A stretch of DNA of 39,921 bases from the NCBI GenBank assembly GCA_016872495.1, contig VGZT01000019.1:1-39921 (forward strand), read 5' to 3'. Numbering within the stretch: the first letter of the stretch is position 1; each line of letters opens with the position of its first letter. A program made the translations under genes and the position numbers. Shown piece after piece: positions 28,795-36,936 of this stretch. The stretch comes from SAR202 cluster bacterium. Its GTDB lineage: Bacteria > Chloroflexota > Dehalococcoidia > Lucifugimonadales > Lucifugimonadaceae. A model generated the notes under the pieces. It was given only the letters and a program-made list of their open reading frames with translations. It did no database searches and was not told the origin of the DNA.

Positions 28795-29586
28795 TCACGC
28801 GATCAGTCGGCGCCTCAGCAGGTATGTCGCCAGCGGGTAGAACAGGAGAGTCAGGCCGGCAAGGTAGGCCAGGGCAAGGACCTCCTGTACTCCGACCGAG
28901 CCCGTAGCAAACCCGCGCGCCGCTTGAACGGCCGGCGTCAGTGGCATAGCCCACGCGACCGGCTGCAGGTAAGACGGCAGCGAGCTGATCGGGAAGAACG
29001 CTCCGCTGAAGAAGAACAACGGAGTCCCGACAAGCGTGAACACGAGCGTCAATGAGTGGGTCGTAGGCGCAACCGACGCGAACACGAGTCCCAGCGACCC
29101 GAACATCAGCCCGGTGAGGGCGCCGACCAGGATTACGCCGAGTCCCATTGGCGATCCGATCAGACCGAGCGCCGCCGCTACGGCCAGCACCGCCACGGTG
29201 GTCATCACCGCCCTTGTCGCGCCCCACGCGATTTCACCGCCGGCAAGCTCCCTCATATTGACCGGCGCGGTCAATAGCGACTCGTAGATCTTGTGTATCT
29301 GCATGCGGCGGTAGGCACCCCACGAGCATTCAAACAGGGCGTGCCACATGGCATTCCCAACCACGATCCCGGGTGCGACAAACTCGGCGTATGAAACATC
29401 CGCCAGCTGGCCGACCAGCTGGCCGACCCCGAAGCCGACCGCCAGCAAGATGAACACCGGCTCGACCACGATCGCGGTGGTCTCGATCAGGTATCCACGC
29501 TTGAAGGCGGTGAAATGGCGCAGCCACACGCCAATCACGTTTGCCGGCCGAAAATCCGCGGTCTTGCCAATTACAGCGAGCGCCAC
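28795..29586 (-). CDS. ABC-2 type exporter permease (DrrB-like)
   Basis: Integral membrane half of an ABC-2 exporter, 263 residues with about six hydrophobic helices. RHFTAFKRGYLIETTAIVVE opens the protein, EFVAPGIVVGNAMWHALFEC and IHKIYESLLTAPVNMRELAG are typical of the NodJ/DrrB family, and GALTGLMFGSLGLVFASVAP followed by FFFSGAFFPISSLPSYLQPV is the characteristic ABC-2 signature region. The GTG start overlaps the TAG of the ATPase gene by one base (TAGTG), so expression is coupled. Substrates of relatives include polyketides, drugs, lipids and polysaccharide precursors. Specificity unknown. Confidence 0.92.
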   Translation of the reverse strand: MALAVIGKTADFRPANVIGVWLRHFTAFKRGYLIETTAIVVEPVFILLAVGFGVGQLVGQLADVSYAEFVAPGIVVGNAMWHALFECSWGAYRRMQIHKIYESLLTAPVNMRELAGGEIAWGATRAVMTTVAVLAVAAALGLIGSPMGLGVILVGALTGLMFGSLGLVFASVAPTTHSLTLVFTLVGTPLFFFSGAFFPISSLPSYLQPVAWAMPLTPAVQAARGFATGSVGVQEVLALAYLAGLTLLFYPLATYLLRRRLIA

Positions 29587-30500
29587 TATTCGTCCCTCAG
29601 CTCACGCCCGGTCAATGCAAGGAATGCATCCTCGAGCGTCGACGGCCTGTAGATCACATGGGCCACACCCAGGCCTTCCACCTGCGGTCGGTCGCCGTCG
29701 CGTCCGTGTACCGCCAGGAGCATGCCCCTTCCGTGCGCCTGGTATCCGCGCTCGGCAAGCGCCCTGACTACCCGGGCCCTCTCTGGTCCTTCCACCTTCA
29801 ACATCGCCGTCTGTGCGCCTGCGATCTCACGAACGAGAGCGTCGGGCGTCCCCTCGGCCAGGATCCGGCCGTGATCGATGACCACCAGCCGGTCGCACAG
29901 GGATGCAGCCTCCTCCATGTAGTGGGTTGACATGGCGATCGTCACCCCCTCTTGCTTCAGATTCGCAAGCTGCTCCCACACCCGGTTGCGACTCTGAGGG
30001 TCAAGACCGGTGGTCGGCTCGTCCAGGATCACCATCCGTGGCCTGTGCATGAAGGCACGCGCTATGCTGAGCCGCCGCTTTAGACCACCTGAAAGATTGT
30101 CCACCTCGTCCCTGGAACGGGCGGTGAGGCCAAAAAACTCCAGCACCTCGTCCGCCCGTGCCCCCGCGACGGACCCTCGGAGCCCGTAATACCGGGCATG
30201 CACGATCAGGTTGTCGCGGGCGCTCAAATCCGGGTCCAGCCCGTCGTGCTGAGCTACAACCCCCAGCGCGTCCCTGATCGCCCGCGATTGCCGGCGCACG
30301 TCCATTCCCAGGACCGTCAAGTCGCCTGAGGTCGGTGGCGAGATGCACGCCATCATTCGCATCGTGGTCGTCTTGCCCGCACCGTTCGGGCCCAGCAAGC
30401 CGAAGGTCTCGCCTGGCCTTACTTCAAATGAGATGCGGTCGACCGCCGTGAGCCGACCGTACTTCTTTTCGAGTTGCGTCGCTCGAACTACTGGATCCAT
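29586..30500 (-). CDS. ABC-2 exporter ATP-binding protein (DrrA/NodI-like)
   Basis: 304 residues. Walker A GPNGAGKTTTMRM, Q-loop VVAQHDGLDPDLSARDN, signature LSGGLKRRLSIARA, Walker B MVILDEPTTGLDPQSR and H-loop MSTHYMEEA are complete. The C-terminal ~80 residues (AMLKVEGPERARVVRALAE to STLEDAFLALTGRELRDE) are the regulatory extension typical of DrrA/CcmA-type subunits. The ATG at 30500 is preferred because GGAAG lies just before it and it gives MDPVVRATQLEKKYG; a start at 30527 is possible. A leader with a strong terminator (30552-30579) lies directly upstream, so the operon may be attenuated. Confidence 0.94.
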   Translation of the reverse strand: MDPVVRATQLEKKYGRLTAVDRISFEVRPGETFGLLGPNGAGKTTTMRMMACISPPTSGDLTVLGMDVRRQSRAIRDALGVVAQHDGLDPDLSARDNLIVHARYYGLRGSVAGARADEVLEFFGLTARSRDEVDNLSGGLKRRLSIARAFMHRPRMVILDEPTTGLDPQSRNRVWEQLANLKQEGVTIAMSTHYMEEAASLCDRLVVIDHGRILAEGTPDALVREIAGAQTAMLKVEGPERARVVRALAERGYQAHGRGMLLAVHGRDGDRPQVEGLGVAHVIYRPSTLEDAFLALTGRELRDE

Positions 30501-30551: not shown

Positions 30552-30579
30552 AAAAAAAAACCGTGGGCTTTGCCCACGG
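30552..30579 (-). terminator. Strong intrinsic terminator
   Basis: In the minus-strand sense: CCGTGGGC-AAA-GCCCACGG (perfect 8-bp stem, 3-base loop) followed by nine T. It ends the small RNA described above and would also stop read-through from the zinc-finger membrane protein gene. Position in front of the ABC operon allows attenuation. Confidence 0.93.
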
Positions 30580-30688
30580 CTTGATTACGCGGCCCGGCCG
30601 ATCAGCCAGCCACCACCGAAGCTGGGCTACATGCCCCCTCACAGGGCCTGACCTTATCAGCCACGGCGCACTCCTACTGCCAGTCCGG
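30552..30688 (-). ncRNA. Small RNA or attenuator leader upstream of ABC exporter
   Basis: A ~137-nt transcript is defined by a promoter (30695-30723) and a strong terminator (30552-30579), both on the minus strand. Short perfect stems are visible in the RNA sense: CUGA/UCAG, CCCU/AGGG, GGGC/GCCC around AUGUA, CCAGC/GCUGG around UUCGGUGGUG, and GGC/GCC around UGAUC. The block does not match the conserved core of SRP RNA, 6S RNA or any riboswitch class I can recall. Because the ABC ATPase gene starts 51 bases past the terminator, it may be a riboswitch-like attenuator; an independent sRNA is equally possible. No open reading frame explains it. Confidence 0.5.
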
Positions 30689-30694
30689 GAAAAT

Positions 30695-30723
30695 ACTCTA
30701 ACCAAACAATCGTCCTGCGGCAA
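30695..30723 (-). promoter_or_regulatory. Promoter for the small RNA/leader
   Basis: Minus-strand -35 TTGCCG (30718-30723), 17-bp spacer, -10 TAGAGT (30695-30700). The predicted start is near 30688. It lies 14 bp past the stop of the upstream gene, so the downstream RNA and ABC exporter have a promoter of their own. Confidence 0.6.
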
Positions 30724-30737
30724 CGCGGGCACCGGTT

Positions 30738-31325
30738 TTAAATGCGCAGGCGATACGCAGCCATCGCAGCGGCGATCAGTATTCCCAGCAGGCTGCGCCC
30801 GATGGCTTCGAGTGCGTTTGCCGGAAGCGCGCCGCCCGGCGACACCGCCCGTACGACGACGAATGCGACCGCGAAACCCACTACGACTCCTCCAGCGGCG
30901 ATCCACATCAATCGCCGGTGCCGCCGGTAGCCGGCCGAGCGAAAGGCGGCCTCCGCGACTCCCCACCCGATCGCCAGCGGAGCCAGCAGCCACAGCAGGA
31001 ACCCGAGCGGACCGATCCACCAGAGGAAGAACAGGTAAGCACCCCAGGCGGCCGCACCGGCGCCAGCGGCGCCCAGCGCGGCGCGGAGCAGCGCCGTACC
31101 ACGCAAGTCGAACGCCGGGTTCATGCGCACCTTTGCGCAATCACTGCAGCGAGCGCCGACCGGCGTGTGCACGAGGCAGCGTGGGCAGATCAGGTCGTCG
31201 CAGCGGGAACACCTGAGGTTCGACTCTACACTGGGATGGCGCTTGCAGTAGACAACGGCCCCCGTCCCGGTCAAGGCCGCTCTACCTCCTCCCCGCTCTG
31301 CGCGCGTGGCCGGCGCTTCAACCAT
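30738..31325 (-). CDS. Zinc-finger (B-box-like) multispanning membrane protein
   Basis: 195 residues, function unknown. The cytoplasmic N-terminus has a treble-clef or B-box-like cluster: YCKRHPSVESNLRCSRCDDL, ICPRCLVHTPVGARCSDCAK, i.e. C..H, CxxC, CxxC, CxxC ligands for two zinc ions. About four hydrophobic helices follow (LLRAALGAAGAGAAAWGAYL, GPLGFLLWLLAPLAIGW, WIAAGGVVVGFAVAFVVV, and the C-terminal LGILIAAAMAA). The same zinc-ribbon header occurs in Actinobacteria and Chloroflexota on rhomboid-type proteases, but the rhomboid Ser/His motif is absent here. ATG with AGGG upstream; the start lies 55 bases inside the plsY 3' end. Confidence 0.75.
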   Translation of the reverse strand: MVEAPATRAERGGGRAALTGTGAVVYCKRHPSVESNLRCSRCDDLICPRCLVHTPVGARCSDCAKVRMNPAFDLRGTALLRAALGAAGAGAAAWGAYLFFLWWIGPLGFLLWLLAPLAIGWGVAEAAFRSAGYRRHRRLMWIAAGGVVVGFAVAFVVVRAVSPGGALPANALEAIGRSLLGILIAAAMAAYRLRI

Positions 31326-31990
31326 TCATCCCTGCTCGCGACATCTCGATCGAGAATGATCCTGTTCAGCAGGATCCGCCCGTTGTTCGCGGCGAAAACC
31401 CGCTCCACCTGGGGACCCGGCCAGTTACCCAGCGAACGCCTGAATATGATGATCGCCGTGTACACCCCGACGAATATGAACAGTTCGCCCGGAAGGCGGA
31501 ACGCGACGACCCAGCCGGGAAGCGCAAACATCGAGATCAGCCATGCCACGGGACTGCTTCTCGTAAACAACCACAGGCCGGCGGCTACCGCCCCGTAAGC
31601 CACCAGCAGCAACGGATTAAGGGCAAGCAGAACGCCGATCGAAGGCGCCAGCCCTCGGCCGCCCCTGAATCCCAAAAAGATCGGCCAGTTATGGCCCGCT
31701 AATACCGCGAGGCCAACGGCAACCTGGACGCTCATTCCAAGATCCAGCACGAACCGGGATGCGAGGAAGACCGGCAAGGCGCCCTTTACGAAGACCTCGT
31801 AAGCGATGATCGGTCCGGCGATGCCCAGACCGGCCTGCTGAATCGCGTTCGAAAGCCCAACGTTGCCGGATCCGGCCTGCCGCAAGTCGACTCCGGTCCG
31901 GGCCTTGACGAACAGGAAGACCGCGGGGACCGAGCCGAACGCGTACCCCGCGACGACCGCCAGCAGCAGGGTCACCAGGTCCTGATTCAA
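31271..31990 (-). CDS. plsY: Glycerol-3-phosphate acyltransferase PlsY
   Basis: Membrane enzyme that acylates glycerol-3-phosphate from acyl-phosphate, the first step of phospholipid synthesis in most bacteria. 239 residues. The three conserved cytoplasmic-loop motifs are visible: GSVPAVFLFVKARTGVDLRQ with GSGNVGLSNA, GHNWPIFLGFRGGRGLAPSIG, and the third loop region after the last helices. Five hydrophobic segments are present. The charged C-terminal tail (LDRDVASRDEWLKRRPRAQS) is longer than usual and overlaps the next gene. Between a PHP phosphoesterase (47 bp upstream) and a zinc-finger membrane protein. PlsX is not in the window. Confidence 0.93.
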   Translation of the reverse strand: MNQDLVTLLLAVVAGYAFGSVPAVFLFVKARTGVDLRQAGSGNVGLSNAIQQAGLGIAGPIIAYEVFVKGALPVFLASRFVLDLGMSVQVAVGLAVLAGHNWPIFLGFRGGRGLAPSIGVLLALNPLLLVAYGAVAAGLWLFTRSSPVAWLISMFALPGWVVAFRLPGELFIFVGVYTAIIIFRRSLGNWPGPQVERVFAANNGRILLNRIILDRDVASRDEWLKRRPRAQSGEEVERP

Positions 31991-32037
31991 CTATCAAGCC
32001 TCGACCGCGGGCGTCCGCCGAGCCATCGAACCGCCGG

Positions 32038-32925
32038 CTACCCGGTCGCTTTCGACGCGCCCGGCTGCCGCGCCGCCGCGCGTGATTCGAGCCGCGACAC
32101 CACGTCGATAGACGGGCCCAGCACCCCGATCCCGCCCGGGACCACTTCGCTCTCGTTGCCATTGGCGTGGTAATCGCTGCCACCGCACTCGAGCAGGCCG
32201 TATCGCTCAGCCAGATTGCGGTACAACGCCAGCTGCTCGGGTCCGTACTTCTCCGTATACACCTCAATGCCGTCGAGTCCATCGTCGGCGAGCTCGATTA
32301 CGACCCGTTCAATGTCGCCGACCGTACGCGGGTGGGCGATGACCCCGGCCCCTCCCAGGCGGTGAAGCAGCTGGAGCGCGTCCCTGGCAACCAGCTTTTC
32401 CCGCGACACCCTCGCAATCCCGTCATCGCCCAGGTAGCGATCAAACGCCTCTTGCATCGACCTGATGTAGCCAGCCTCAACCATCGCGCGCGCGATGTGG
32501 GGCCTGCCCACCGCGCCGCCGGCAAGCTCCTGAACGCGGTCCCATGAGATATGAATGCCGAGCGTTGCAAGCTTTTCAACCGTGCGGCGAGCCGCGTCGA
32601 CTCGGGAATCCCGCATGCGCGACAGCAACGCCTGGAATTCGACGTTGGACTCGTCGAAGAAGTAGCCGAGCAGATGGATCTCGGACCCTGAACTCTCCGC
32701 GCTCAACTCGATACCCGTGATCAAGCGGATGTGCGGGAATCGCACAAGGCGTGTCTTCGCCTCCGCCAGGCCCGCAGTCGTGTCGTGATCCGTGATCGAG
32801 ATCACCTTGAGGCCCGTTCCGCCGACCTGGTCAATGAGCTGGGTCGGCGTGAGCCTCCCGTCGGAGGCGGTGGTGTGAAGATGCAGGTCTACCTGCGGCC
32901 GCTGCATCGATTCGCCCTCGCTCAA
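32038..32925 (-). CDS. PHP-domain phosphoesterase (RNase AM/YciV-like)
   Basis: 295 residues. The PHP metal-site motifs occur in order: DLHLHTTASDG (residues ~13-23), SITDHDTT (~44), LITGIELSAE (~69), EIHLLGYFFDES (~82), GVIAHPRT (~195) and CGGSDYHANGNES (~248). This order and the total length match the YciV/TrpH family, whose members hydrolyse 3',5'-nucleoside bisphosphates and trim 5' ends of RNA as RNase AM. The ATG overlaps the stop of the ymdB-like gene by 4 bp; an in-frame ATG at 32907 is an alternative. Together with rny and ymdB it makes a nucleic-acid-processing cluster. Confidence 0.93.
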   Translation of the reverse strand: MSEGESMQRPQVDLHLHTTASDGRLTPTQLIDQVGGTGLKVISITDHDTTAGLAEAKTRLVRFPHIRLITGIELSAESSGSEIHLLGYFFDESNVEFQALLSRMRDSRVDAARRTVEKLATLGIHISWDRVQELAGGAVGRPHIARAMVEAGYIRSMQEAFDRYLGDDGIARVSREKLVARDALQLLHRLGGAGVIAHPRTVGDIERVVIELADDGLDGIEVYTEKYGPEQLALYRNLAERYGLLECGGSDYHANGNESEVVPGGIGVLGPSIDVVSRLESRAAARQPGASKATG

Positions 32926-33695
32926 TGCGTCGTCTCCCGGTCGATTCTCTCGATGGCCACCGCCTGGCCGGTCTGGTCGTCCAGCTCAATCATGACGGAA
33001 TTGAACCGGCACGCGCCCTCGGCAACCCGGAGATGTCGCGGCATGTTGTTGAGGAATCGAAAGAGGGCGTCGCCGACCTCCATTCCAATCACCGAGTCCA
33101 TCGGACCAACCATCCCGAGGTCGGTCACGTACGCGGTGCCTTTCGGAAGGATCCGCTGATCGGCGGTCGCCACATGAGTATGGGTGCCAACCAGCGCCGC
33201 CACGCGGCCATCCAGGAAGTAGCCCATCGCCTGCTTCTCGGACGTCGCCTCAGCGTGGAAATCGACCAGGACCGGGCGTCCGACCGCGTCGTGCGATTTC
33301 AGGAACTTCTCCATCACCGCAAACGGCGAATCGAACTCACCCAGGAACACCCGGCCGATCAGGTTGACGACGACCAGTCCGCCCAGGTCGATGAAACCAC
33401 GGCCCGGAACGCTGGGCGGATAGTTCATCGGCCTGATGACCGGCAATGCCCGGTCGTTGAGATGGGTGATGAACTCATTGCGGTCCCAGACGTGGTTGCC
33501 GGTCGTGACGACATCTGCCCCCGCGGCGAGCAGTTCCTTAACGGTATCGAGCGTCAGGCCGAACCCGGCCGCGATGTTCTCGCCCTGGACGATCGCGAAG
33601 TCGAGCGCCAGTTCCTTGCGCAGGTCGGGAAGAATCGTGGCGAGCGCATGCCGACCGGGTCGACCGACCACATCTCCGACCATTAGAACGCGCAC
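32922..33695 (-). CDS. ymdB: YmdB-like metallophosphoesterase (TIGR00282 family)
   Basis: Dinuclear-metal phosphodiesterase, 257 residues; B. subtilis YmdB (264) hydrolyses 2',3'-cAMP and affects biofilm and sporulation. Motifs: VRVLMVGDVVGRPGRHAL with the first Asp, FAIVQGENIAAGFGLT with Glu-Asn, DVVTTGNHVWDRNE with Asn-His, LVDFHAEATSEKQAMGYFLD, and ALVGTHTHVATADQRI with HTH. The GTG at 33695 is chosen because GAGGAGGG lies just before it and the protein then starts as the family does; the open frame extends upstream into low-complexity residues. It follows rny by 83 bp, the conserved arrangement in Firmicutes and relatives. Confidence 0.93.
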   Translation of the reverse strand: MRVLMVGDVVGRPGRHALATILPDLRKELALDFAIVQGENIAAGFGLTLDTVKELLAAGADVVTTGNHVWDRNEFITHLNDRALPVIRPMNYPPSVPGRGFIDLGGLVVVNLIGRVFLGEFDSPFAVMEKFLKSHDAVGRPVLVDFHAEATSEKQAMGYFLDGRVAALVGTHTHVATADQRILPKGTAYVTDLGMVGPMDSVIGMEVGDALFRFLNNMPRHLRVAEGACRFNSVMIELDDQTGQAVAIERIDRETTH

Positions 33696-33778
33696 GGCCC
33701 TCCTCGTTTCTTCGTCTGCGGTCCGTGCCTCGATCGCAGCGGCCGCCAACGAGCGTCGGCGGCCGCCCAACGCCTGTG

Positions 33779-35308
33779 CTACCTGGCGAACTCTACCGTT
33801 CGAGATTCCCTGATGACCACAACCTTGATCTGACCCGGATACGCGAGGGTCTCTTCGATCCTCTTCACAATGTCGCGTGCCAGTACGACCGCCTTCGAGT
33901 CATCGATCTCTTCCGGTTTGACCATCACCCGGATCTCGCGACCGGCCTGGATGGCAAAACAGCGTTCGACCCCGGCAAACCCTCTGGCCACGTTCTCGAG
34001 GGCTTCGAGACGCTGAATGTAATGCTCGACGGTGTCACGACGTGCCCCCGGCCGCGCCGCGCTGATTGCGTCCGCCGCGGCAACGAGGAACGACTCGACC
34101 GTCGTCATCTCCCGGTCGTGATGCTCGCGAATCGCCTTCAGGATCTCATCGGGCATGCCGTACTTGGCGACCAGGTCGGCGCCGATCTCTGCGTGCGGGC
34201 CTTCGACCTCGTGGGTCAGCGCCTTCCCGATGTCGTGCAGGAACCCGGCCGTCCTGGCCACGTTCACCTTGCTGCCAAGTTCAGACGCCAGCATCGAAGC
34301 CATCAGAGACACTTCCACGCTGTGCTGCAGGACGTTCTCGCCGTAGCTGTACCGGTACTTGAGCCTGCCCATCATCTTGATGAGCTCGGGGTGCAGACCC
34401 TTGACGTTCGAGTCGAGCATCGCCTGCTCACCGGCCTTCCGGATCGTCTCGTTCACGTCCGCCTGGGCGCGCTGCACAAGCTCCTCAATGCGCGCAGGAT
34501 GGATCCTGCCGTCCTGGATCAGCTTCTCCAGGGCACGCCGGGCGACTTCCCGGCGGATGGGATCGAAACACGAGATCGAGACCGTCTCAGGCGTGTCGTC
34601 GATGATCAGGTCGACGCCAGTCGCCGCTTCGATTGCGCGGATGTTCCGGCCTTCCCGACCGATCAAGCGGCCCTTCATCTCGTCGCTCGGGATCTGGACG
34701 GAAGCCACAGTAGATTCCGCGACGACTTCCGACGCCAGCCTCTGGATCGATCCGGCGATGATCTCGCGCGCGACGCCGTCCGCCTGGTCGTGGAACTGCT
34801 CTTCGGCATCCCGAGTGCGGCGGGCCAGTTCGAACTGTATGCCCTCCTCGGCGCGCCTCAACAAGAGTTCTTTGGCTTCCGAGAGCGACAGCCCCGAGAT
34901 GGACTCGAGTCGCTTGGCTTCTTCAAGCCTGAGCGCTTCTAACTCCCCGATCTTTTTCTCGTTTTGAGCTTCTGCATTTCTGAGCTTTGATTCTCTGGAA
35001 TCAAGCCCTGAAGATCGCCTTTCCAGGCTCTCTTCTCTCTGTTCTAAACGTTGTTCCTGCTTCTGAAATTCCTGCCGTCTGGCCCTGAGTTCCTGCTCAA
35101 GCGCGGTCTTGGCCTGGATGGCCTCTTCCTTTGCTTCAAGAAGGATCTCTTTGCTGCGTTCCTCCGCTCGTCGAATCTGATCCTGGGCCGCCCCGAGTGC
35201 CGCCTTGGCACTTCGGGATATCAGCGCGTTCCTTAGCCAGAAACCGATGACGCCTGCCAGTATCGCGACAACTAGGGCCGTAAAGACGGCGGTAATGAGG
35301 ACTTCCAT
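33779..35308 (-). CDS. rny: Ribonuclease Y
   Basis: Membrane-anchored endoribonuclease initiating mRNA decay. 509 residues, the usual length. An N-terminal transmembrane helix ([20 protein letters not shown]) is followed by a long coiled coil (~35-175), a KH domain ([20 protein letters not shown], ~205-270) and an HD hydrolase domain ([20 protein letters not shown] with the HD pair; [20 protein letters not shown]). GAGGAGG lies 5 bases before the ATG. A promoter and two leader hairpins are upstream (35344-35412). First gene of a cluster with ymdB-like, PHP and plsY genes. Confidence 0.96.
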
Positions 35309-35343
35309 AAAGCCTCCTCGACCGCCAATGGTCTATTTGTTTC

Positions 35344-35377
35344 GAGCCTCTCCTTGGGCTCTCGGGCATCTGCCCGA
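35344..35377 (-). promoter_or_regulatory. Two hairpins in the rny 5' leader
   Basis: In the minus-strand sense the leader begins with UCGGGC-AGAU-GCCCGA (35362-35377, perfect 6-bp stem) and continues with GAGCC-CAAGGAGA-GGCUC (35344-35361, 5-bp stem). The predicted transcription start (~35376-35377) puts the first hairpin at the extreme 5' end, where a structure can shield RNA from 5'-end-dependent decay. Autoregulation of RNase Y through this leader is inference. Confidence 0.5.
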
Positions 35378-35382
35378 AAGCA

Positions 35383-35412
35383 ATATTAAGTAGCGCCGCC
35401 TTGAACCGTCAA
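35383..35412 (-). promoter_or_regulatory. Promoter of the rny operon
   Basis: Minus-strand -35 TTGACG (35407-35412), 18-bp spacer, -10 TAATAT (35383-35388). The -35 lies inside a perfect inverted repeat GCCTTGA-CGGT-TCAAGGC (35398-35415), which could act as an operator or as the end of ffh transcription, although no T-run follows. Confidence 0.7.
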
Positions 35413-35462
35413 GGCAGAATGCCACGGCGTTTAGGCCGCCGCGGGTAGAAAAAGCGCAGCGT

Positions 35463-36809
35463 CTAGCGCTTGCCGGCGAGCATGCCCATCAACGCGCGCT
35501 TGCCACCGGGCCCGGAGATCTTCTTCATCAGCTTCTGCATTTCCGCAAACTGGTTTAGCAGCTGATTTACGTCCGACGCAGTTGTCCCGGAACCAAGCGC
35601 AATCCTGCGCCGCCTGGAACCGTTGATTATCCTCGGATCGCGGCGCTCAGCATGTGTCATCGAATAGACGATCGCTTCGGCGCGAACGAGTCGCTTTTCG
35701 TCGATCTTGCTGGTATCTATTTTTCCGCGCAACGCACCCATGCCAGGCAGCATGCCCAGGATGTCCTGAAGCGGTCCCATTTTCCGGACCTGTTGCAACT
35801 GCTGCAGGAAATCTTCCAGATCAAACTGGGACTTGCGAAGTTTCTTCTCGAGTTCCTTCGCGTGTGCGAGATCCAGGTCTTGCTCGGCCTTCTCGATCAG
35901 GCTGGCGATGTCGCCCATGCCAAGCACACGCGAAGCAAGGCGATCAGGGTGGTACGCCTCCAGGCCGTCCGTTTTTTCGCCGACGCCAATGAACTTGATC
36001 GGCACGCCGGTGACCGATCGCATCGACAGGGCAGCCCCACCCCTGGCGTCCCCATCCATCTTGGTCATGACTATTCCGGTCAGTCCAACGCGTTCGTGGA
36101 ACTCGGCGCCTGACCGCACGGCATCCTGACCCGTCATAGCGTCGACGACCAGGAGACTTTCGACCGGGCTCACCGCCTTGCGGATCTCGCCCAGCTCGGT
36201 CATCAGCTCCTCGTCGATGTGAAGCCGGCCCGCGGTGTCGAGGATCAACCAGTAGATGTTCTGAGCCTGCGCCGCCTTAACCGCGTTGGTCGCGACCTGA
36301 CGAGCGGACGACTTCGACGGGTCCTCGGAGTAAACGGGCACGTTCAGCTGCTTGCCAAGCTGGATCAGCTGTTCGATGGCGGCCGGCCTCTTCAGGTCGC
36401 AGGCAGCCAGCATCACGTCCTGCTTCCTGGTCTTGCGGATGTGGAGCGCCAGCTTGGCCGCAGTCGTTGTCTTACCGGCACCCTGGAGGCCAACCAGCAT
36501 GACGACCGTCGGCGGGCGCTCACCCCGCGCGAGATCGACCACCTCACCGCCGAGAACGGCGGTCAGCTCCTCGTGCACGACCTTGAGGATCGTCTGGTCG
36601 GGCGTGAGCGAGCCGAAAACATCGGCCCCGGATACCCGTTCCTTGATCTTCTTGACGAACTGAGCGACGACCTTGAAGTCGACGTCGGCCTCGAGCAGCG
36701 CGAGACGGACCGCCCGGAGCGCCTCGTCGACGTCCTTTTCGGTGATTCGACCCCGGCCCGTCAGCTTGCCAAAGGCGACAGTCAGCTTGTCAGAAAGCGA
36801 TTCAAACAT
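35463..36809 (-). CDS. ffh: Signal recognition particle protein Ffh
   Basis: GTPase that binds signal sequences of nascent membrane proteins and delivers ribosomes to FtsY. 448 residues. N domain MFESLSDKLTVAFGKLTGRG, G1 GLQGAGKTTTAAKLA, G3 LDTAGRLHID, G4 TKMDGDARGGAAL, closing-loop GVGEKTDGLEAYHPDR, and a methionine-rich M domain (KMGPLQDILGMLPGMGALRG; FAEMQKLMKKISGPGGK). The ATG at 36809 gives the family N-terminus, but its AGAGAGG sequence directly abuts the ATG, a spacing that is too short for efficient use. The longer open frame lacks a better start. No 4.5S RNA gene was recognised nearby. Confidence 0.96.
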   Translation of the reverse strand: MFESLSDKLTVAFGKLTGRGRITEKDVDEALRAVRLALLEADVDFKVVAQFVKKIKERVSGADVFGSLTPDQTILKVVHEELTAVLGGEVVDLARGERPPTVVMLVGLQGAGKTTTAAKLALHIRKTRKQDVMLAACDLKRPAAIEQLIQLGKQLNVPVYSEDPSKSSARQVATNAVKAAQAQNIYWLILDTAGRLHIDEELMTELGEIRKAVSPVESLLVVDAMTGQDAVRSGAEFHERVGLTGIVMTKMDGDARGGAALSMRSVTGVPIKFIGVGEKTDGLEAYHPDRLASRVLGMGDIASLIEKAEQDLDLAHAKELEKKLRKSQFDLEDFLQQLQQVRKMGPLQDILGMLPGMGALRGKIDTSKIDEKRLVRAEAIVYSMTHAERRDPRIINGSRRRRIALGSGTTASDVNQLLNQFAEMQKLMKKISGPGGKRALMGMLAGKR

Positions 36810-36936
36810 CCTCTCTATCGTCGCACAAACCCAGCTTCCATTCCCGTGTGGCCTCTGCACTCATGCGAACTTCGCGTAGATCGGCCAACTCGACTAAACT
36901 GGCGGCAGCAACCGGACCATCAGGAGGCCCAGGAAC

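Follow-up and report, generated by a model that had tools for sequence, protein, structure and literature searches.

A putative transcription attenuator precedes a two-gene ABC-2 exporter in the window, that is, the whole stretch of 39,921 nucleotides analysed here, which forms contig 19 in a genome of 2.34 Mb that is 98% complete. The unit is on the minus strand, consists of a promoter, a leader and a terminator, and is sited between the pair plsY and B-box gene on one side and the exporter genes on the other. The terminator very probably acts as an attenuator of the exporter. Judging from the sequence, it is moderately likely that the exporter is controlled by a ribosome-mediated transcription attenuator of the BmrB-bmrCD type.

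Promoter, terminator and exporter genes

Table 1. The unit, its predicted elements and the neighbouring genes (positions in the window)
Feature	Position	Strand	Details
Promoter	30695..30723	-	-35 TTGCCG (30723-30718), 17-nt spacer, -10 TAGAGT (30700-30695)
Shine-Dalgarno AGGAG	30671..30675	-	spacing score 5 to GTG
Leader ORF	30602..30664	-	GTG start, 20 codons + UGA, (M)ADKVRPCEGACSPASVVAG
Predicted antiterminator, 5' segment GCCCAGCTT	30619..30627	-	codons 13-16, complementary to the terminator's rising arm
Predicted hairpin CTGGCT-GATC-GGCCGG	30594..30609	-	stop codon at apex; antiterminator core
Intrinsic terminator stem-loop	30558..30582	-	AAGCCGTGGGC-AAA-GCCCACGGTTT
Nine-T termination tract	30552..30560	-	sole run of at least seven A or T in the window
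ABC exporter ATPase, NodI/DrrA-like (candidate regulated gene 1)	29586..30500	-	ATG 30500; alternative GTG 30527 gives 313 aa
ABC-2 permease, NodJ/DrrB-like (candidate regulated gene 2)	28795..29586	-	
Gene with B-box-like zinc motif and membrane helices	30738..31325	-	upstream neighbour of the unit in both species; B-box under the Pfam gathering score
Genes with matches to ffh/SRP54, RNase Y, YmdB, PHP and plsY, and the gene of the B-box-like membrane protein	31271-36860	-	one direction, directly upstream of the unit

The promoter, the terminator and the ATPase ATG are all where the earlier note on this DNA had placed them, the ATG at 30500 being 51 nt past the T run. That note described the terminator as an 8-bp stem followed by nine T. 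The core, CCGTGGGC-AAA-GCCCACGG at 30579-30561, and the nine T hold, and the stem reaches 11 bp (30582-30558) when the flanking AAG/TTT are counted. A terminator with a perfect stem of at least 8 bp and a T tract occurs once in the 39.9-kb window and in none of 40 dinucleotide shuffles; a looser scan over 7 kb gave no enrichment (3 found vs 4.2 expected). The terminator pattern CCGTGGGCNNNGCCCACGG occurs in one place each in the window's genome and in that of a congener (G001), and in none of the 59 other genomes among the 61 searched.

By itself the promoter score is at chance level, with 8 of 12 consensus positions matched and 17 and 21 such sites per strand vs a shuffle mean of 24.75. The congener has TTGCGG-18-TAGAGT, in which the -10 box is identical to that of the window and TTGC is at a similar distance. 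The promoter is supported because TAGAGT and a similarly spaced TTGC are kept in the congener and because TAGAAT-type boxes precede some tRNA genes of the window's genome. These were inspected by eye for 30 of the 39 tRNA genes, namely those with loci, and the promoter-like boxes there are equally degenerate, TAGAAT, TACGAT and TATCCT being among them. Transcription is predicted to start at about 30688-30690, which gives a leader of about 130 nt overall; about 110 nt, the 3' part of which is conserved, separate the promoter from the terminator. As a separate observation, TAGAGT is also present upstream of the orthologous ATPase in another genus at 2 of 20 loci (L014, at -170, and L017, at -107), with no terminator seen, and this is possibly an older promoter or chance.

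The spacer between the terminator and the ATPase ATG has no TA dinucleotide in either species and therefore cannot hold a TANNNT box. Since it lacks such a box, the exporter is probably transcribed only by read-through past the terminator, which would make the unit an attenuator. In NCBIfam the exporter pair is nearest to NodI/DrrA and NodJ/DrrB, under the curated cut-offs. The ATPase scored 277.5 bits with drrA (cut-off 312.45 bits) and 256.5 with nodI (cut-off 424) and is thus related to both and certified as neither. A PDB search with the ATPase returned general ABC ATPases, which give no hint of the substrate. Among the genes upstream of the unit, Pfam recognises SRP54, RNase Y, YmdB and PHP; PlsY follows.

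The leader ORF and a predicted competing antiterminator

The earlier note saw no ORF between promoter and terminator, but the leader holds a 20-codon ORF led by a Shine-Dalgarno (SD) sequence at 30664-30602. The congener also has an SD-led ORF of 20 codons, MGVVVIIRPVALRPRLRVPG (L003:374-436). MAFFT aligned the two without a gap from the start to codon 20, and the stops are aligned too. In each leader there is exactly one SD-ORF of at least 8 codons with proper spacing before the terminator. Shuffled leaders contained an SD-ORF of at least 12 codons ending near the terminator in 9.9% of cases for the window and in 6.5% for the congener. SD-ORFs equal in length with a matching stop arose in 0 of 3000 paired shuffles, a result that overstates the evidence because the shuffles ignore the homology of the two leaders. 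By eye, the two peptides have 6 of 20 residues in common, the start included. A coding signature is absent across the two ORFs, the three codon positions being identical in 9, 9 and 8 of 20 codons, which is equal divergence, and the two share no stretch of codons that would serve as control codons for a single amino acid.

The earlier note had suggested looking for an antiterminator that competes with the 30561-30579 stem, and such a pairing is predicted in both species. In each, an antiterminator can form from codons 13-20 and the terminator's rising arm; its inner helix carries the stop codon at the tip, and its outer helix, GCCCA:UGGGC, is in the same columns. Nine pairs are in common columns, out of 22 in the window and 24 in the congener. 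Four pairs of the core hairpin are in the same columns in the congener, one of them changed from TG to TA. In both species the antiterminator arm begins 26 nt ahead of the ORF's end, which was equalled by 35 of 4000 joint shuffles, a modest signal. Taken alone, the antiterminator of the window is no stabler than those of shuffles (z -0.08): 76 of 400 shuffles reach its arm pairing and 411 of 1000 its duplex energy; the corresponding counts for the congener are 26 of 400 and 175 of 1000.

The ribosome was modelled by deleting the RNA as far as its leading edge and then folding the remainder. With the P-site at codons 1-8 and the falling arm not yet made, the rising arm pairs upstream with 9 of its 11 bases in the window and 10 in the congener. 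At P-site codon 8, folding from codons 13-14 on, the energy of the antiterminator is -28.7 kcal/mol in the window and -39.9 kcal/mol in the congener. In the window the upstream pairing is lost at P-site codons 11-13 and later positions give weak substitutes only; in the congener it fades from codons 11-13. The terminator of the window wins at equilibrium at every ribosome position and therefore a kinetic choice would be needed there. In the congener the antiterminator beats the finished terminator at codons 1-4, and without a ribosome it has already formed before the falling arm is made, so that termination may not be the default of the untranslated congener leader.

We lean, with moderate confidence, to the view that the leader ORF drives the attenuation. 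RNA polymerase would start at the TAGAGT promoter, make the leader and stop at 30552 by default. A ribosome translating the ORF to its stop would cover the RNA from about codon 16, and the terminator would form instead of the antiterminator. A ribosome held in roughly the first 8-10 codons would leave codons 13-20 free to form a long hairpin with the rising arm, with the stop codon at its tip, by which the terminator would be blocked and the exporter transcribed. On this view, which is inferred from the sequence, the leader ORF would be translated and a stalled ribosome would switch the RNA. As to the signal, slowed translation, caused by ribosome-targeting compounds or other translation stress, is a tentative but plausible choice. 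A single amino acid is disfavoured because there is no conserved codon run, and ribosome-targeting compounds or translation stress are favoured because the target is an exporter and because BmrB provides a precedent. More speculatively, the leader may be a sensor of translation stress that is independent of peptide sequence, with selection only on the SD, the length of the ORF, the position of its stop and the antiterminator of codons 13-20; codons 1-12 would then drift, and it would be the position of the ribosome, not a peptide or a codon run, that opens a drug-type exporter. The macrolide-arrest motif is +x+. It is found in the window as K4-V5-R6 and in the congener within R-P-R-L-R at 12-16, and it was rejected as the sensor because in the ribosome-position folding the congener copy comes too late for the antiterminator.

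Conservation, distribution and rival explanations

The ATPases of the window and the congener are 77% identical (232/302) and their four-fold sites have reached saturation, with 46 of 136 identical against an expected 33.4%; an identity well above about 34% therefore implies selection. In this comparison of two sequences, 19 of 25 terminator columns are identical (P 2e-5), 14 of 22 from the stop codon to the terminator arm (P 0.004), 12 of 24 in codons 13-20 (P 0.07) and 14 of 36 in codons 1-12 (P 0.31), the last being the neutral level. Thus, as far as the alignment tells, the terminator and the stretch between stop and terminator are kept by selection, codons 13-20 are perhaps kept, and codons 1-12 appear not to be under selection; the identity climbs where the antiterminator begins. 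As a test, the earlier note had proposed to ask whether the 110 nt that precede the terminator are conserved, and the outcome is divided, the 3' part being conserved and the 5' part not. The 5' halves of the two leaders differ in length and in fold.

The genus has three genomes. Two of them, those of the window and of the congener, have the exporter, and both have the unit, with the order plsY, B-box gene, unit, ATPase, permease being identical. The order in the congener spans two contigs, C4 and C14 (L051, L003), the ends of which share 141 identical bases inside the B-box gene, and this is an ordinary assembly break. The third genome (61% complete) is uninformative about the unit because neither the ATPase at E <= 1e-60 nor the permease nor the B-box gene was found in it. 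A DNA search of 100 genomes with the 172-nt unit found it in its own genome only. A covariance model, R1, was built from the two unit sequences. In the 76 genomes of the family it gave, beyond its two source places, a reverse-strand match on the congener terminator and a hit of E 0.096 in G004; in the 250 genomes of the order, with stricter filters, it matched only the window's genome and the congener at E <= 0.001. The unit looks like a genus-level device. By eye, no terminator of such a kind was seen in about 330 nt upstream of 12 orthologues in other genera; the T-run scan upstream of orthologues is reliable solely for loci already in gene orientation. The search of genome contigs gave 13 loci, one of which is the congener again, and no permease relative was found in viral contigs. 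At the three loci inspected in genus g3 (L006, L008, L012), the B-box gene and the ATPase have a gene on the opposite strand between them. There, a strong terminator with T7 closes the B-box gene (L006 at about 380-407; L008, reverse complement, at about 396-427) and faces this opposite-strand gene of about 270 codons.

Rfam gave no match at the gathering score in the window, and with the two units only matches far below gathering, none with a meaningful E-value. The earlier note left the choice between a riboswitch or attenuator and a stand-alone sRNA. The attenuator is what survives of this, given that promoter and terminator are conserved, that the spacer before the ATPase cannot hold a TANNNT box and that a competing antiterminator is predicted. 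A riboswitch that binds the exported compound, which it had also suggested, is unsupported because Rfam has no matching family and codons 1-12, at neutral identity, are not conserved; the differing 5' halves also speak against it. A stand-alone sRNA gene, for instance a divergent 6S RNA, preceding the exporter by chance is weakened because the exporter would then be left without a TANNNT promoter, and we consider it very improbable. The leaders do fold better than shuffles (z -2.76 in the window and -4.64 in the congener), and RF00013 finds no 6S RNA in the window's genome, which is 98% complete, so that a divergent 6S RNA may be elsewhere in it; RF00013 does match in 5 of 14 control genomes. 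But the predicted folds differ, a rod in the window and several hairpins in the congener, Rfam offers no matching family, and a housekeeping RNA would be expected to occur widely, unlike the matches of R1 in the order. SRP RNA as the identity of the unit was rejected, since it was found elsewhere in the genome.

If the unit is an attenuator, the ORF need not be what drives it. A protein, an RNA chaperone or a ligand could control the terminator, with the 20-codon ORF being fortuitous, and this would agree with the missing coding signature, with the terminator and the post-stop stretch being the best conserved parts and with the frequency at which single SD-ORFs of this kind appear in shuffles (6.5-9.9%). 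This is unlikely, with some real chance of being right, in view of the two aligned SD-ORFs of equal length, of the antiterminator, which in both species is built in part from the ORF's own sequence, stop codon included, and of a 5' half that is not conserved, so that no aptamer is visible. It is rather improbable that the stem-loop simply ends transcription of the housekeeping genes upstream (ffh, RNase Y, ymdB, PHP, plsY and the B-box gene), with the exporter reached by read-through only and the internal promoter a chance match. The promoter score is not above chance and the upstream genes share the direction of the terminator, but a plain terminator would need no conserved antiterminator, nor does it account for TAGAGT and TTGC being kept at similar spacing in the congener at saturating divergence or for the roughly 110 nt of leader, conserved in their 3' part, between promoter and terminator. 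If this were a trp/ilv-type attenuator that answers amino-acid starvation, with leader codons sensing charged tRNA, its sensor in the congener would be the five consecutive branched-chain codons (V V V I I, codons 3-7), which lie where a stalled ribosome would open the terminator. The corresponding zone in the window reads A D K V R P C E and has no such run, the first 12 codons are not conserved, and the regulated genes are for an exporter and not a biosynthetic operon; hence we regard this as extremely improbable.

Relation to known leaders

The kind of mechanism proposed here is already textbook and known from other bacteria. If the proposal is true, ribosome-mediated attenuation of ABC exporters extends beyond Bacillus to uncultured Chloroflexota, and the proposal points to the exporter that responds to translation stress there. 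A literature search on attenuators with a leader peptide in Dehalococcoidia or Chloroflexota found none; searching for Chloroflexi together with transcriptional attenuation and leader peptide gave a match that names Chloroflexi in its reference list only.

The ErmD and ErmK leaders are antibiotic-sensing uORFs, and some such uORFs depend on particular nascent peptides, unlike the leader here, the peptide of which is not conserved. BmrCD is an exporter of a type other than ABC-2, whereas the exporter here, with a NodI/DrrA-like ATPase and a NodJ/DrrB-like permease, is ABC-2. Other antibiotic-sensing uORFs are, in the sections of their reports used here, toiL of E. coli, which acts on translation with Rho-dependent termination (PMC12121999), and the msrD leader (PMC10314930). 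The present unit has a short ORF in common with toiL, msrD, ErmD and ErmK; theirs senses ribosome-targeting drugs via translation and remodels the downstream RNA. With attenuators of the trp/his type, as outlined in parts of PMC4191407 and PMC9413887, it has in common an ORF of similar size order, a predicted antiterminator set against a terminator and a stop near the competing hairpin; it differs in that no repeated control codon is common to both species and in that its target is an exporter.

Premature terminators ahead of ABC transporter genes, as here, form a recurrent class, often with an unknown sensor, according to the parts of Naville and Gautheret (2010; PMC2965389) drawn on here, in the main text of which neither Chloroflexi nor Dehalococcoides occurs as a word. 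The closest parallel is BmrB-bmrCD of Bacillus subtilis, in which, by the portion of Reilman et al. (2014; PMC4191407) that we rely on, a leader ORF is followed by a terminator and a less stable antiterminator, and slowed ribosomes open transcription. The present unit likewise has a leader ORF, a terminator and a predicted antiterminator less stable than the terminator, and then a two-gene ABC exporter. In the same portion BmrB is described as having 53 codons, with the terminator inside its ORF, whereas the leader here has 20 codons, the terminator is 19 nt past the stop, the phylum is a different one and the switch is predicted from the sequence.
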